Assembly (NCBI RefSeq): GCF_025770725.1
Contig: NZ_JANZKZ010000001.1
Span: 248,001-312,000 of the forward strand
DNA: 64,000 bases
Source: Sulfurospirillum oryzae
GTDB lineage: Bacteria; Campylobacterota; Campylobacteria; Campylobacterales; Sulfurospirillaceae
Direction of reading: 5' to 3'
Below are positions 27,646 to 34,230 of the stretch, in pieces (the first letter of the stretch is position 1; every line of letters begins with the position of its first letter). Under the pieces are notes generated by a model. That model did no database searches, was not told the DNA's origin, and saw only the letters and a program-made list of their open reading frames with translations. The translations under genes and the position numbers were made by a program.

Positions 27646-29844
27646 ATGAATTTATTTTCAACACTATTTCATACTTTATTTTCATCAGATAGCACATATA
27701 ATGCACTGTATAGATTTTTTGATGAAAGTAACTCAATCATGTTACTGATTGATCCAGAAAGTGGTGAAATCATCAATGCAAATCATGCGGCATCACACTA
27801 TTATGGTTATGCACTCGATCAACTAGTAGGTATGTCTATCTCTTCGTTTAACATACTTCCACATGAGGAAGTCAAACAAGAACGCCAACGTGCCCTTACG
27901 GAAGAACGCAACTATTTTAATTTCAAACACCGCATTGCCAATGGTGAAATCAGAGATGTTGAAGTTTATTCAACTCCTATCAATCTTGATGATAGAAAAG
28001 TTCTTTTTTCCATTATTCATGATATAACAGAGCGTAAAAAAGCAGAAGCACACCTGCAAGAAGTCAATGAAAATCTTGCTAAACAAGAATTAATCTTTAA
28101 ACAGATCATGGATACATCCAGCGTTGCCATCTTTTTAGTCAACTTACAAGGATTCATTACCCATGCCAATCAACGCATGGCAGAGATGTTCTTGTACCCT
28201 CTTGACGAGCTTATCGGCAAAGAGTATGTTGAACTCATCCATAGTTCTGAAAAAGAGATTGCTCGCCAAAAAATGCTTGCACTTTTAAGCAGTAAAATTC
28301 CCTCAGTAGATCTCGAACGCATCTACTGTCGTTTCGATGGAAGCAATTTTTGGGGTCGCCTTACAGGAAAACGTTTTTATGATACGAAGGGCATAGAGAT
28401 AGGCCTTGTTGGTGTCATCGCCGATATTGACGAAAGTAAATATATTCAGCAATGTGAGCAGCATCATAAACAAATTCTCCAAATGATTGCACTCAAATCA
28501 CCGCTTTACACCATTTTACATGTCATGATAGGAGATATTGAATCTATTCATCATCAACGCGTTGGCTGTAGCATTGTACTTTTTGATGAAACAAATCATA
28601 AACTCATCCTTGGAGCGACCTCAAATGAGCTACAACTTTTAAGCACAACGCTTATTGAAGCATCATCTAACAATGCACTTTTTTTACAAAATTTACTTCA
28701 CCTTCCCAGTAAGCCAACACTCTTTAGTACACTAGCTGAAAACAGATGGTGGAGTGAAAATATCGAATGTCCTCCCTCTCATGATAACGAAAATTGTTGG
28801 GTAAATCCGATTGTCTCTGCATTTGGTAAGCCATTAGGCCTCTTAATTATTTGCTCATTAAAGCACCAAGCGTTGACGCCACGAGAGATTAAATTGGTCG
28901 AAGATGAAGTACAATTTGTTGCGCTTGCCATTGAAAAAAGTCAAAGTGATGCTAAAGTACAACTGGCTGCTAATGTTTTTACGCACGCTAAAGAGGGAAT
29001 TATTATCACCGATCCGCATGGAACAATTATTGAAGCCAATGAGGCATTTATCCGTACCACAGGGTTTAACCTTGAAGAGATCATCGGACACAATCCACGC
29101 ATCTTAAAATCAGGGCGACAAGAGACATCATTTTATACCCACATGTGGCAAAGTATTCTCACACAAGGAAATTGGCAAGGAGAGATTTGGAATCGCCGCA
29201 AAGACGGTAGTATCTATGCAGAAATGGTGAACATTAGTGCGATTAAAGATAGTGAAGGAGAGATTCAACATTTTGTCGCACTTTTTACAGACATCACAAC
29301 CATTAAAGAGCATGAAAAAAAACTAGAACACATGGCACACCACGATGCGCTTACCTCTCTTCCAAACCGTGTATTGCTATGGGATAGGATTCATCAAGCG
29401 ATTGCAGAAGCACAACGTTATAACACCTATCTTGCCTTACTTTACATTGATCTTGATGGCTTTAAAGAGATTAATGACACGTATGGTCACAGTATTGGCG
29501 ATGAGCTTTTGATTACCATTTCTCAGCGTATTAGCGCATTGTTACGCAAAAATGAAACGATTGCACGCCTAGGTGGGGATGAATTTGTTGCACTGCTAAC
29601 CGATTTAAAGAAACCCGAAGAGTGCATTTCAATTCTTGAGCGAATTTTAGAAGCCATGAGAGAAGTTATTGTGATTCATGGCATTGATTTGTATGTTTCA
29701 GCGAGCATTGGCGTGAGTTTTTATCCTAAAGACACTATCGATGCAGAAAAGCTTGTCTTACATGCAGACAAAGCTATGTATCGTGCCAAGCAATCAGGAA
29801 AAAATCGTTATCAGTTCTTTAACATGCAAGAAGATTTATCTTAG
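27646..29844 (+). CDS. PAS-PAS-GAF-PAS-GGDEF diguanylate cyclase
   Basis: A 732-residue cytosolic sensor without membrane segments. Order: PAS (about 25-130, ESGEIINANHAASHYYGYAL), PAS (about 145-265, GFITHANQRMAEMFLYPLDE), GAF-like (about 285-430), PAS (about 440-550, IIEANEAFIRTTGFNLEEII) with PAC, then GGDEF (about 560-730, HDALTSLPNR, DLDGFKEINDTYGH, RLGGDEF). The active site is intact. At the inhibitory RxxD position it reads RKNE. There is no EAL domain, so it should only make cyclic di-GMP. Its last 4 bases overlap recR on the other strand. Confidence 0.93.
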   Translation: MNLFSTLFHTLFSSDSTYNALYRFFDESNSIMLLIDPESGEIINANHAASHYYGYALDQLVGMSISSFNILPHEEVKQERQRALTEERNYFNFKHRIANGEIRDVEVYSTPINLDDRKVLFSIIHDITERKKAEAHLQEVNENLAKQELIFKQIMDTSSVAIFLVNLQGFITHANQRMAEMFLYPLDELIGKEYVELIHSSEKEIARQKMLALLSSKIPSVDLERIYCRFDGSNFWGRLTGKRFYDTKGIEIGLVGVIADIDESKYIQQCEQHHKQILQMIALKSPLYTILHVMIGDIESIHHQRVGCSIVLFDETNHKLILGATSNELQLLSTTLIEASSNNALFLQNLLHLPSKPTLFSTLAENRWWSENIECPPSHDNENCWVNPIVSAFGKPLGLLIICSLKHQALTPREIKLVEDEVQFVALAIEKSQSDAKVQLAANVFTHAKEGIIITDPHGTIIEANEAFIRTTGFNLEEIIGHNPRILKSGRQETSFYTHMWQSILTQGNWQGEIWNRRKDGSIYAEMVNISAIKDSEGEIQHFVALFTDITTIKEHEKKLEHMAHHDALTSLPNRVLLWDRIHQAIAEAQRYNTYLALLYIDLDGFKEINDTYGHSIGDELLITISQRISALLRKNETIARLGGDEFVALLTDLKKPEECISILERILEAMREVIVIHGIDLYVSASIGVSFYPKDTIDAEKLVLHADKAMYRAKQSGKNRYQFFNMQEDLS

Positions 29845-30410
29845 ATTTTTGTACGTGATTCGAGTGCTTTGGACAAAGAGAGCATATCGACATTTTCAAG
29901 ATGAACCCCTGTTGGAACTCCTTGCGCAATCTTCGTAAAATGTAGCGTATGATTTTTGAGCTTATCTTCAATAAATAAAATCAAAGCATCATTGGCTAAA
30001 GAAGGCGTCAATGCAAAGATCATCTCGCGAGTGCCATCTTTGACCATCTCTTCAAGCTTACTCAGCGTCTCTTCTTCCAAATTCCCTAGGACAAAATAAC
30101 GCCCATCAAAGAGCTTATGCTCTTCAAGAACAAAAATATCTTTAGCACTCTCAACGATGCAGAGCTTTTGCACATCACGCCTTTCATCAAGGCAAATATC
30201 GCAAATTTCATGCTCACTCAAAGCCCCACAACGCTCGCACTTACGAATACTCTTAATCGCACTCTCAATAGCATTGGAGAGTTTCATCGCAGAAAATGTG
30301 TCATTTAAAACAAGATGATATGCAAACCTTACAGCGGACTTTCGTCCAACCGTAGGAAGTTTTTCAAACGCATCGACCAACTTGTTAAACTTCTCCAATC
30401 CTCGCATCAT
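29841..30410 (-). CDS. recR: Recombination protein RecR
   Basis: RecFOR mediator subunit that helps load RecA at gaps. The 189 residues contain the N-terminal helix-hairpin-helix (KLPTVGRKSAVRFAYHLV), a four-Cys zinc motif CERCGALSEHEICDIC and a Toprim domain (KLCIVESAKDIFVLEEH). It overlaps the ArsS-like kinase stop as ATGA, an unusual but probably cotranscribed arrangement, and converges with the upstream cyclase with a 4-base overlap. Confidence 0.96.
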   Translation of the reverse strand: MMRGLEKFNKLVDAFEKLPTVGRKSAVRFAYHLVLNDTFSAMKLSNAIESAIKSIRKCERCGALSEHEICDICLDERRDVQKLCIVESAKDIFVLEEHKLFDGRYFVLGNLEEETLSKLEEMVKDGTREMIFALTPSLANDALILFIEDKLKNHTLHFTKIAQGVPTGVHLENVDMLSLSKALESRTKI

Positions 30411-31654
30411 GCTACGCTTCCTCTTGAAAAATCAATGCTAAACTGATGGAACCCTGCTTCATAGCTGTAACTGACCTCCAAGCCATGTTGAGTAACAATA
30501 TTTTGAACAATGTAAAGACCAAGACCAAGTCCACTACCACAAGCTTTTGAGCCTGAAACGAACGGTCTAAAATACTCATCAATTGCCATTTTAAGAGCTT
30601 CTCCCTCATTGGCAATAATCAATTTCTGCTCACTATTTTTCACAAAAACACGGTGATTGAGGCTATGCTTCATCGCATTGTCCATCAAGTTTTTAATCGC
30701 CAACGCCATAAGATCAAAATCAACAGTGACTTTAAAATCAAAATCGCCTTCAACCTTCACTTGCTCTTCTCGTTTTTTATCATCAAGCATCAACAGATCA
30801 ATGGCTTGATCGATGACATGCAAAAGCGAATATTCTTTCATATTGAGTTCATAGCGTTGTGATGTCAGCTGCTCTATTTTGGAAAACTCGGCAATTAACA
30901 GATCAAGCCTTCCAAAAACACCGACTAAACGTTTTTTAGCCGTATCATCTTCTAACATTTCCGCCACAATCCGCCCTTTACCAATAGGCGTTTTAAGCTC
31001 GTGCATAATCGTACGTAGAAACAACTGCCTTGAATGAATCAGGTCGCGTATCTTTTTAACCGCACGATCAAATTCATTGGCAACTTCACCAATTTCGTCA
31101 TTGTGCTCACTCGCACACTCTATACTTAAATCACCACTGGCAAATTTGCGTATTTGTGCGCTAAGTGACTTGAGAGGTGCAATACTTTTATAAATAGAAA
31201 CATACATGTAAAGCAAAATCAAAAGGGCTATCACAAAAACAACCCACAAACTCTCATTAAAGTTTTTGTAGTCCTGACTCTCTAAAAGAACGCTTGACTC
31301 GAAGTTATCGATAAAAAGATAATAACGATCATTGTAAATGATGGAGGAAAAACGACTGATAGGAGAGAGCTTTTGAAAAATAATAACACCACGCTCCAAA
31401 ACCGAATCACGCAGATATTTACTCGAAACCTTTTTGAGCCCAAAGTTGTTAAAATACTCTTCGATATCTCCTGGTTGAACGTTATTGCGGTACATGACAA
31501 GAAGATAATTCACCGATTGAAGCTGACGTTGCTTCATGTTTTCAAGATTTTTATCGCTTTGATGCTCCAAAAGCAGTGCAAAAAACATCGCCAGTAAAAA
31601 AAGCGAAAGAAAAAAAACCGCGCTAATTTTGTTAAGAATTGAGTTTTTAATCAT
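30407..31654 (-). CDS. ArsS-like sensor histidine kinase
   Basis: A 415-residue membrane kinase. Two membrane segments (about 10-28 and 135-155) enclose a periplasmic sensor of about 105 residues. HAMP follows (SIAPLKSLSAQIRKFASGDL), then the H-box IMHELKTPIGKGRIVAEMLE and ATPase motifs NLMDNAMKHS and GLGLGLYIVQNI. The H-box and overall layout resemble Helicobacter/Campylobacter ArsS, an acid-responsive kinase; the signal here is unknown. It overlaps the regulator gene by 4 bases. A two-mismatch palindrome occurs at 31201-31212. Confidence 0.88.
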   Translation of the reverse strand: MIKNSILNKISAVFFLSLFLLAMFFALLLEHQSDKNLENMKQRQLQSVNYLLVMYRNNVQPGDIEEYFNNFGLKKVSSKYLRDSVLERGVIIFQKLSPISRFSSIIYNDRYYLFIDNFESSVLLESQDYKNFNESLWVVFVIALLILLYMYVSIYKSIAPLKSLSAQIRKFASGDLSIECASEHNDEIGEVANEFDRAVKKIRDLIHSRQLFLRTIMHELKTPIGKGRIVAEMLEDDTAKKRLVGVFGRLDLLIAEFSKIEQLTSQRYELNMKEYSLLHVIDQAIDLLMLDDKKREEQVKVEGDFDFKVTVDFDLMALAIKNLMDNAMKHSLNHRVFVKNSEQKLIIANEGEALKMAIDEYFRPFVSGSKACGSGLGLGLYIVQNIVTQHGLEVSYSYEAGFHQFSIDFSRGSVA

Positions 31655-32322
31655 CCGACAAGCTTATATCCGATCCCTCGAACAGAGTGGATGTATTCGG
31701 GATTTTTAGAATCATCATTGATCTTAGCACGTAACCTTCCAACAATGACATCTAAACTTTTAGAGCCTTTATCTTTGAGCGATTTGCAGTTATAGACCAA
31801 TTGCTCTCTGGAAATTGAAAAGCCATTTTGACGAATCATATACGAAAGTATCTCATACTCAGCAGGTGTCAGACTTAACACTTCACCCTTAAAAGAGATC
31901 TCATGGCGCTTCTCATCGACAGCAAAAACACTCACACCATGTTGCTCTTCGGGTGCCGAACTTTTTTTATAACGGCGAATCAAGCTCTGAATACGTGCGT
32001 ACATCTCTTTAGGATCATACGGCTTTGGCAAATAGTCATCTGCTCCAATTTGAAGCCCAATGACTTTATCGCTAATATCGCTGCGCGCCGAAGAGATGAT
32101 AATTGGAATGTCATATTTTGCGACAACCTCTTTGCACACTTCAAGCCCATCCATACCGGGCAATGTAAGGTCTAAAATCAAAAGATCATACTTTTTAACA
32201 CCCGCACTAAGCCCCAAATAAGGGTCTTCATAATTGGTAATTTTGATATTGTATTTGGCGAGGTATTCACTTAATATTTCGGCAAACTCGGCATCATCTT
32301 CTATCATTAAGACATTAATCAT
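31651..32322 (-). CDS. ArsR-like OmpR-family response regulator
   Basis: A 223-residue regulator: receiver with acidic pocket IEDDAEF, phosphoacceptor in LLILDLTLPGMDG and lysine in YLPKPYDP, then a winged-helix output domain (SLTPAEYEILSYMIRQNGFS; DVIVGRLRAKINDD; VRGIGYKL). Resembles Helicobacter ArsR, the two-component regulator, not the arsenic repressor. A good -10 box lies 55 bases upstream (32377-32382). The phased GTTAA boxes before the adjacent Spy-like gene are a plausible target. Confidence 0.9.
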   Translation of the reverse strand: MINVLMIEDDAEFAEILSEYLAKYNIKITNYEDPYLGLSAGVKKYDLLILDLTLPGMDGLEVCKEVVAKYDIPIIISSARSDISDKVIGLQIGADDYLPKPYDPKEMYARIQSLIRRYKKSSAPEEQHGVSVFAVDEKRHEISFKGEVLSLTPAEYEILSYMIRQNGFSISREQLVYNCKSLKDKGSKSLDVIVGRLRAKINDDSKNPEYIHSVRGIGYKLVG

Positions 32323-32376: not shown

Positions 32377-32382
32377 ATTATA
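32377..32382 (-). promoter_or_regulatory. -10 box of the ArsRS-like operon
   Basis: TATAAT on the minus strand, 55 bases before the regulator ATG, in an AT-rich leader; AAAGGT lies before the ATG. It drives the regulator, kinase and probably recR, which are joined by 4-base overlaps. Confidence 0.55.
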
Positions 32383-32401: not shown

Positions 32402-32429
32402 AAAAAAAGAAGACCTCCGAAGAGGTCTT
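32402..32429 (-). terminator. Intrinsic terminator of the Spy-like gene
   Basis: On the minus strand AAGACCTC, loop TTCG, then GAGGTCTT followed by CTTTTTTT: a perfect 8-bp stem with a very stable UUCG tetraloop and a T-tract, 22 bases after the Spy-like stop. A textbook Rho-independent terminator that separates it from the ArsRS-like operon. Confidence 0.92.
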
Positions 32430-32450: not shown

Positions 32451-32945
32451 TTATTTACTTGCAGGGGTAGTAGCAGGTGTTACAGGAGCTGGTTTTTGTG
32501 GTTTTTGAGCCATCAGTGTTTTAAGTTCAGCACGTTGCTCTTTCGTTAAAAGGTTGAACACTTTTTCCATGTGATCCGCTTGAAGCGTTACCATTTTTTC
32601 ATGCATTTCATTGTGCATTTTAATAAATGCTTTTTTATCAAAGCTTTCACCGCTCATCAAATCTTGCATTTTTGTCATCATCTTTGGATCACGAAGCTTG
32701 GTCATTTCTAACTTCATTTCACTTTGCAAAACAGCTAATTTATGGCGTTGATCATCAGTAAGATTGAGTTGCTGAAGCATACCCATACCACCTTTACCGC
32801 CATGCATCATCATACTACCTTGTCCCATACCTTGCATCATTCCCATATCAGATTGCATGCCTTGACAGTTACCACCACCATAAGCGAAAGCTCCTGTCGT
32901 TCCTAGGGCAACTAGAGTTGCTAGCGTTAAGATTGTCTTTTTCAT
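32451..32945 (-). CDS. Spy/CpxP-like periplasmic protein
   Basis: A 164-residue secreted protein: signal peptide MKKTILTLATLVALGTTGAF ending in AYG, then a Met/Gly/His-rich stretch (about 25-55, MQSDMGMMQGMGQG) that could bind copper or similar metals, then two LTxxQ-like motifs (LNLTDDQRHKL and LLTKEQRAEL) of the Spy/CpxP chaperone family, and a Pro-rich tail. AAGGAG precedes the ATG. It is transcribed toward the ArsRS-like pair, and four phased GTTAA boxes lie upstream, suggesting control like CpxR-cpxP. Confidence 0.85.
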   Translation of the reverse strand: MKKTILTLATLVALGTTGAFAYGGGNCQGMQSDMGMMQGMGQGSMMMHGGKGGMGMLQQLNLTDDQRHKLAVLQSEMKLEMTKLRDPKMMTKMQDLMSGESFDKKAFIKMHNEMHEKMVTLQADHMEKVFNLLTKEQRAELKTLMAQKPQKPAPVTPATTPASK

Positions 32946-32991
32946 TGTGTACTCCTTAAAAGTTTTATGATGAAATCTTACAAGAGCGCTA

Positions 32992-33028
32992 TTAACAAGC
33001 TTTTAACGGTTTGTTAACAGACCTTAAC
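32992..33028 (-). promoter_or_regulatory. Four helically phased GTTAA boxes
   Basis: Read on the minus strand, GTTAA occurs at 33028-33024, 33018-33014, 33007-33003 and 32996-32992, i.e. with 10-, 11- and 11-base periods. They lie 47-83 bases before the Spy-like ATG, with a -10-like TAAGAT at 32980-32975, so the last boxes cover the -35 zone. OmpR-family regulators bind such direct repeats (compare the CpxR box GTAAA-N5-GTAAA). The dnaJ gene is divergent from the same gap. Confidence 0.6.
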
Positions 33029-33096
33029 AACCAAAATTTAAACTACTTTTTGATAAAATCTTGATCTTCAAAATCTTACATGTAAAGAGAACAATA

Positions 33097-34230
33097 GTGG
33101 ATCTAGAATATTATGAAGTATTAGAAATTACCAGAAATGCAGACGCTACAGAGATTAAAAAAGCGTATCGAAAATTGGCACTTCAGTACCATCCCGATCG
33201 CAATCAAGGCGACAAAGAAGCTGAAGAAAAATTCAAAGCCATCAATGAAGCTTATCAAGTTTTAAGTGATGAACAAAAACGCTCTACTTACGATCGTTAT
33301 GGTAAATCTGGACTTGACTCTCAGGGCTTTAGCCACTTCTCCGATATGCGCTACGAAGACATCATGGGTGATCTTGGCTCCATTTTTGAGTCAGTTTTTG
33401 GTGGAGGATTTAGCAGTGGTGGTTTTGGCGGAGGCGGATCAAAACAAAATCGCAAATACAACTTGGATCTTGAAGCTGAAGTCACTTTAGCATTTAATGA
33501 AGCTATTTTTGGAACCAAAAAAGAGGTGAGCTTTTCCTACAAAAAACCTTGTGACACTTGCGATGGCACTGGAAGCAAGGACAAATCAAAAGCGACATGT
33601 AAAGAGTGTAAAGGCAAAGGTCAAGTCTTTTACCGACAAGGCTTTATGACCTTTTCGCAAACGTGTCCTGAGTGTAATGGCAAAGGCAGTGTCGTAACGA
33701 ACCCTTGCCCAAGTTGTAATGCCAAAGGCTTTTCACAAGTGGACGATAAAGTCACTATCGACATTCCAGAAGGCATCGACAACAACAATCGCATCCGTGT
33801 TGCAGGTCGTGGTAACATCGATGAACGAGGTACTAGAGGTGATCTTTACATCTTGGTACATGTCAAAGAAGATGAGCATTTTGTACGCCATAACGATGAT
33901 ATTTACATTGAAGTACCTGTATTTTTTACGCAAGTAGCACTCGGTGAAACCATCAAAATCCCAACGATTCGTGGTGAAACAGAGCTTGAGCTACCTTTAG
34001 GGGCAAAAGACAAACAACAGTTTATCTTCAAAAAAGAGGGTGTTAAGAACGTTCATACTCATCAATTGGGTGGTATGATCGCTCAGATTTCAATCCGCTA
34101 CCCTAAAAAACTCACCAAAGAGCAAAAAGAATTGCTTACAAAACTGCAAGAAGAATTTGGTGTTGAAACCAAACACAAAGACGAGAAATACGAAGGCGTC
34201 TTTGATAAAATCAAAAGCTGGTTTAACTAA
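33097..34230 (+). CDS. dnaJ: Chaperone DnaJ
   Basis: Hsp40 co-chaperone of DnaK. The GTG at 33097 gives 377 residues starting [20 protein letters not shown]; the J-domain HPD is in LQYHPDRN. A Gly/Phe region (about 80-115) and four zinc repeats follow ([32 protein letters not shown]), then the C-terminal substrate domain. An ATG at 33061 would add 12 non-homologous residues. The near palindrome CTTACATGTAAA (33075-33086) runs into the purine-rich ribosome site. A -10-like TAAAAT lies at 33054-33059. No dnaK or grpE nearby. Confidence 0.97.

Follow-up and report, generated by a model that had tools for sequence, protein, structure and literature searches.

A row of four GTTAA boxes upstream of a spy-like gene in Sulfurospirillum oryzae is most probably the operator of the adjoining RacR-type response regulator, through which that regulator would activate spy; from comparison of sequences alone, we give this reading a probability of roughly 0.8. 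The array lies in a 64-kb stretch of the genome (64,000 nt), here called the window, and reads on the minus strand, from 33028 to 32992, GTTAAGGTCT GTTAACAAACC GTTAAAAGCTT GTTAA, that is, GTTAA-N5-GTTAA-N6-GTTAA-N6-GTTAA with periods of 10, 11 and 11 bases. The features on the spy side, most of them read directly from the sequence, are as follows.

33024..33028, minus strand: box 1 (GTTAA), most distant from spy
33014..33018, minus strand: box 2 (GTTAA), 10 bases past box 1
33003..33007, minus strand: box 3 (GTTAA), 11 bases past box 2
32992..32996, minus strand: box 4 (GTTAA), 11 bases past box 3
32975..32980, minus strand: TAAGAT, -10-like hexamer of the spy promoter, 11 nt past box 4, with conserved spacing
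32953..32958, minus strand: AAGGAG, ribosome-binding-site-like
32451..32945, minus strand: Spy/LTXXQ-family periplasmic protein of 164 aa with a Met-rich N-terminal part (PF07813)
32410..32429, minus strand: hairpin and T run, terminator-like, between spy and the regulator gene
32377..32382, minus strand: TATAAT, promoter-like, separate, for the regulator genes; also upstream of the regulator in relatives

The phased boxes had been pointed out in an earlier sequence-only reading, and the observation is confirmed. With up to three mismatches allowed, the four-box pattern has a single site in the window, and a match of any kind was obtained in 0 of 100 dinucleotide-preserving shuffles of the window. 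Counting adjacent phased GTTAA pairs is a weak test by itself, since at least three pairs were reached in 7 of 100 shuffles; the window has three, against a mean of 1.04 expected, and all three are inside the array.

The description of the downstream gene as Spy/CpxP-like is also borne out. Its product scores 45.5 bits against PF07813 (Spy/LTXXQ; gathering cut-off 24.3), and a profile built from the protein and 12 relatives matches Spy (3oeo, E 3.1e-14) and CpxP (3itf, E 3.3e-8) in the PDB. The predicted structure has an all-helical core of high confidence and a Met-rich N-terminal part of low confidence, and its best Foldseek matches are again Spy and CpxP, at modest E values of 7.7e-3 and 2.6e-2. 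Because the scores fall under the cut-offs of both the Spy equivalog (NF007769, 48.7 bits; cut-off 174) and the CpxP equivalog (NF007687, 36.9 bits; cut-off 160), "Spy-like" is the right term and "Spy" would be too strong.

The TAAGAT hexamer, a feature missed by the sequence-only reading, is followed by 29 nt that include AAGGAG, and then, at 32945, by the start codon (ATG) of the 164-aa gene. If transcription starts about 7 nt past the -10, as seems likely, the box positions come out near -58, -48, -37 and -26. Box 3 then overlaps the -35 region, box 4 stops 11 nt short of the -10, and no good -35 is present. PhoB-type class II activators work with the same layout, in which boxes replace the -35. 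In a comparable mechanism, phosphorylated RacR molecules would line up head to tail across the four boxes, all on the same helical face, and the bound RacR would replace the -35 element and recruit RNA polymerase, such that activity of the ArsS-family kinase RacS would lead to more of the Spy-type periplasmic chaperone. The gene probably has its own transcript here, since the terminator-like hairpin parts it from the promoter-like site before racR, and in this the window is unlike the overlapping spy-regulator pairs found elsewhere. TATAAT-type promoter-like sites are no commoner in this region than in shuffles.

The same site might instead be used for repression, with the bound RacR blocking the promoter. 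The boxes do overlap the core promoter region; however, a gap of exactly 11 nt before the -10, together with the absence of a good -35, is the layout of class II activation as known for PhoB. The evidence from Campylobacter jejuni points both ways, in that RacR represses aspA/dcuA (PMC6682613, PMC5293742) and activates ggt (PMC4456614). Repression of spy seems unlikely to us. Because the C. jejuni protein activates ggt yet represses aspA/dcuA, activation of spy by RacR is a direction that we infer.

The array is strongly conserved in the genus. A spy gene is present in 22 of 24 Sulfurospirillum genomes, and four boxes and a -10 were found at all 22 of the spy loci read. Over the 88 pooled boxes TTA is fixed, the last A has a frequency of 0.99, and the first base is G (0.72) or A (0.28). 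The four boxes and -10 of the window (32975-33028) correspond to the genome match G000:C1:280975-281028, and in 15 of the 16 genus genomes searched there is exactly one perfect site of this composition, always at spy; the sixteenth (G001), a genome of 86% completeness, yielded no match to spy. A wider regulon of perfect sites was looked for in these 16 genomes and none was found. The proposal to search for the same phased boxes elsewhere in the genome thus gave no second perfect site, its near matches leading instead to the sRNA-like genes described below. The sequence-only reading had also staked itself on conservation of the repeats in close relatives, and this refuting condition fails because the array is kept in them, in the genus and also in other families. 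In other genera of the same family it is kept even where dnaJ does not adjoin spy. In two genus genomes (L077, at G008:C1:701213-707221, and G004:C7:16781-22787), about 5 kb separates spy from racR, and the array before spy is still perfect.

Outside the family, we scored 99 spy loci, drawn from the better part of one match list and from a second search rather than at random, and with some weaker or second places left out, using box and -10 frequencies (PWM) from the genus alone. Where a regulator gene adjoins spy downstream, 55 of 68 loci scored above the 99% line of the shuffles; where none does, 5 of 31 did. The figure of 55/68 is somewhat optimistic because the geometry (11,11,11,16) was added after it had emerged in the same set and several of the arrays were seen by eye before scoring. 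As controls we took the upstream regions of further ORFs from these AT-rich loci, called mechanically at a length of at least 120 aa; of 251 such regions, 1 was above the line. In a comparison of all spacings over 104 spy upstreams, (11,11,11) ranked first and (10,11,11) second of 216, and with the -10 included (11,11,11,16) ranked first and (10,11,11,16) second of 576; in shuffled upstreams, (10,11,11) was 151st of 216 and (10,11,11,16) 308th of 576. Both the scoring and the ranking used shuffles of single bases as well as of two-base blocks. On average, the boxes carry 1.2-1.3 bits of information per position and the spacers 0.4-0.6, a difference of two to three times.

Helically phased TTAA steps are able to bend DNA, and it is conceivable that the boxes, being phased and AT-rich, only serve as a curved-DNA or UP-like promoter element to which no specific regulator binds. 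Such an element would not be expected to have the purine-TTAA specificity of the boxes, to become RTTTAC in another regulator clade, or to be absent from 250 of the 251 controls, which come from equally AT-rich surroundings at these loci, and we regard it as very improbable. Adjacency and clade association suggest instead that the spy array is occupied by an OmpR-family regulator. Across the order, spy is usually directly upstream of regulator and kinase genes, and the spy-linked regulators outside the family belong in the regulator tree to several ArsR-like lineages, RacR being one among them. In the window these genes are the following.

31651..32322, minus strand: OmpR-family response regulator, RacR ortholog (gene order, tree)
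30407..31654, minus strand: ArsS-family sensor kinase in the position of RacS (NF038389, gene order)
29841..30410, minus strand: recR, member of the conserved gene order

The pair had been described as an ArsRS-like system. The kinase is indeed of the ArsS family (NF038389, 445.5 bits; curated cut-off 250), and the assignment can be refined, since both gene order and the regulator tree make the pair an ortholog of C. jejuni RacRS. The order dnaJ (divergent), regulator, kinase, recR occurs in C. jejuni (L160, L164, L165) and C. coli (L157, L161), and the window has the same order except that spy stands between dnaJ and the regulator gene. In the tree, the regulators of the window, of Sulfurospirillum and of Campylobacter, including C. 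jejuni, form one clade (support 98/96), and both of the window-genome paralogs that were included fall outside it. The recognition-helix segment, SKSLDVI(I/V)GRLR, is near-identical in C. jejuni RacR, whose genes are given as Cj1261-Cj1262 for racRS (PMC9449129). A spy gene is also located between dnaJ and the regulator in L136 (isolate Kmv14), L137, L150 and L151, and the L136 regulator groups with Campylobacter (98/87). With spy at the same place in these four loci, its loss in Campylobacter is the simpler reading.

The proposed sensing of metal by the system is unsupported: the stretch between the two hydrophobic segments of the kinase contains neither a Cys nor more than one His, which lies at the membrane edge, and only the Met-rich tail points in that direction. 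A candidate signal is envelope protein stress. For RacS itself, the activating signal is called unknown in a RacRS-group review (PMC6682613).

The type of box goes with the type of regulator. RTTTAC boxes at the same spacing were found with 8 of 10 WSxxR-type regulators and 2 of 71 others (Fisher 6e-8), the WSxxR motif being situated before the recognition helix in the RTTTAC-linked clade. When regulator columns were associated with box type, the top columns were spread over the whole regulator and the recognition helix was not singled out, which argues for a clade effect, with co-inheritance of box and regulator type, rather than for a contact residue. The spy promoters with RTTTAC boxes at this spacing are those of L260, L264, L266, L267, L268, L284, L269, L280 and L066; the reverse complement of their boxes is GTAAA-N5-GTAAA, the CpxR half-site.

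A further scenario is that the array is bound by another OmpR-family regulator of the genome, and that RacR is a mere neighbour. Four further regulators are encoded at E <= 1e-40, and sRNA-like genes elsewhere in the genome have related boxes. However, spy and the regulator adjoin across the order, the array score depends on the adjacent regulator (55/68 versus 5/31), and the box type tracks the clade of that adjacent regulator. The probability of another binder therefore appears low, and RacR is the likely binder of the array.

The remaining question about the target concerns the divergent gene on the other side of the array.

33097..34230, plus strand: dnaJ, divergent, beyond the array as seen from spy
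33051..33059, plus strand: TGATAAAAT, extended -10-like site, presumably of the dnaJ promoter; similar sequence in relatives

The array could act mainly on dnaJ, or on both genes equally, since it lies between the two with box 1 about 25 nt from the dnaJ -10-like site, and heat-shock proteins are misregulated in C. jejuni RacRS mutants (PMC9449129). Among the RacR-type loci of named genomes, however, the array is over the line in 14 of 17 with spy and in 1 of 30 without it, two loci (L125, L154) being left out of the count as too short. The single spy-less positive is a C. jejuni locus with a score of 6.6 against a line of 6.4, whichever strand scored better over 400 bases being taken. Most of the spy-less loci still have dnaJ adjacent, and the array therefore belongs to spy. 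It also stays with spy where dnaJ does not adjoin (L126, L129, L130), with the spacing of 11 nt to the spy-side -10 still fixed. Three RacR-type loci have spy without an array (L133, L150, L151). Because the array tracks spy and not dnaJ, we reject dnaJ as the main target and consider any such role for the array, alone or shared equally, quite improbable; spy is presumably the main local target of RacR.

In general terms, the array has the form of an OmpR-type operator, a class already known: its direct repeats are helically phased and keep a constant distance to the -10. The proposed link between regulator and target is new, and the geometry is unusually rigid. A literature search, largely of open-access papers, returned no description of a four-box spy operator or of the sRNA-like family. 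Like the class II operators of PhoB and OmpR, the array has head-to-tail boxes with a period of 10-11 bp that end about one turn before the -10 and replace the -35; it differs from them in its own box sequence and target, and in having four boxes at 11 nt from the -10 that are kept across families. A parallel to the CpxR boxes before cpxP was drawn in the sequence-only reading. The layout does work alike, as in the CpxRA-CpxP system of enteric bacteria and Pseudomonas short direct repeats precede a Spy/CpxP-fold gene beside an OmpR-family regulator and a kinase. The regulator, in contrast, is separate: CpxR identity is rejected for this RacR ortholog, which scores 119.5 bits against the CpxR equivalog NF008199 (cut-off 341). 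The operators differ as well, with two GTAAA boxes in the one case, arranged as GTAAA-N5-GTAAA (PMC12802237), and four GTTAA boxes with N5, N6 and N6 spacers and a period of 10-11 in the other. Within the genus Sulfurospirillum there is a precedent in the site of the OmpR-family regulator PceP (TCS2) at pceAB, where three CTATA boxes with a period of 11 bases overlap the -35 (PMC7755780); the phasing of 11 bp is shared, whereas the boxes (CTATW) and the target genes, those of organohalide respiration, are different.

The C. jejuni system shares the orthologous regulator and kinase, the gene order and the recognition-helix segment, but Campylobacter has no spy at racRS and, save for the one borderline locus, no array. 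The targets described for C. jejuni RacR are fumarate and glutamate genes (PMC4456614, PMC6682613, PMC5293742), and judged by their sequences they appear to be only partly like the array. Before aspA in C. jejuni and C. coli, in a promoter region known to be bound by RacR, a conserved ATTAA-N6-ATTAA is found in all three records (L332, L333, L331), a pair that has an 8% chance by shuffle per 260 bases. No exact pair was seen before ggt or dcuB.

Taken together, the finding is both stronger and older than could be known from the window. A wider scenario, which we offer tentatively and at somewhat less than even odds, is that RacRS began as a Spy-coupled envelope-stress system, with the four-box, -35-less spy operator an old design common to several ArsR-like lineages of Campylobacterales. 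In Campylobacter, spy would have disappeared together with the array, the regulator being retained for metabolic targets, and the Sulfurospirillum design would also drive multicopy anti-Shine-Dalgarno small RNAs as an RNA arm. In Campylobacter, RacRS has been studied as a respiratory and colonisation regulator. The conservation of an operator with one target, the gene of a periplasmic chaperone, suggests that RacS originally responded to envelope protein stress. The spy promoter could serve as a simple reporter for testing RacRS input in a harmless, free-living relative. For the spy-linked regulators of the order, the data provide an operator model of four RTTAA boxes spaced 10/11-11-11 at 11 nt from the -10, and the spy-less lineages without an array provide its natural contrast.

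Near matches to the array in its own genome revealed a multicopy family of units, here called sRNA-like, that are short, end in a terminator and apparently do not code for protein; their 5' part has ACCTCCTTTTTGTG, complementary to a Shine-Dalgarno sequence.

G000:C6:31296-31441: sRNA-like unit in the same genome (L367)
G000:C5:17675-17808: sRNA-like unit in the same genome (L385)
G000:C1 near 531514: sRNA-like unit in the same genome (L415)
L368-L425: sRNA-like units in relatives

By DNA search, the family is found in 18 of 19 genus genomes and in 0 of 12 others. Phased RTTNA boxes lie 11 nt before TATACT in all 37 anchored copies (38 anchored rows, of which one, the first of two for L375, is not a real copy) and in 19 of 20 further copies. 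These 20 come from 22 loci without the anchor and were scored with a less strict anchor and a -10 matrix that differed slightly, the other two being too short. For about a dozen copies, the boxes lay outside the search match. Since the boxes are nearer RTTTA than GTTAA, the regulator may be a RacR paralog. Rfam gave nothing in the window between 32200 and 33200, and in six sRNA-like loci it gave tRNAs only, with no family for the units themselves.

Some Sulfurospirillum genomes have a second, distant spy gene (L075, L076; also L204-L206), located directly after a different regulator-kinase pair, and its -10 is preceded by TTTACC(T)TC repeats. Finally, a thioredoxin-fold, DsbC-like protein, so named by eye, is encoded at L078:243-963 on the minus strand (G000:C3), with ATTTACCTTTCATTACC before its promoter; this gene is near a 61% paralog of the window regulator.
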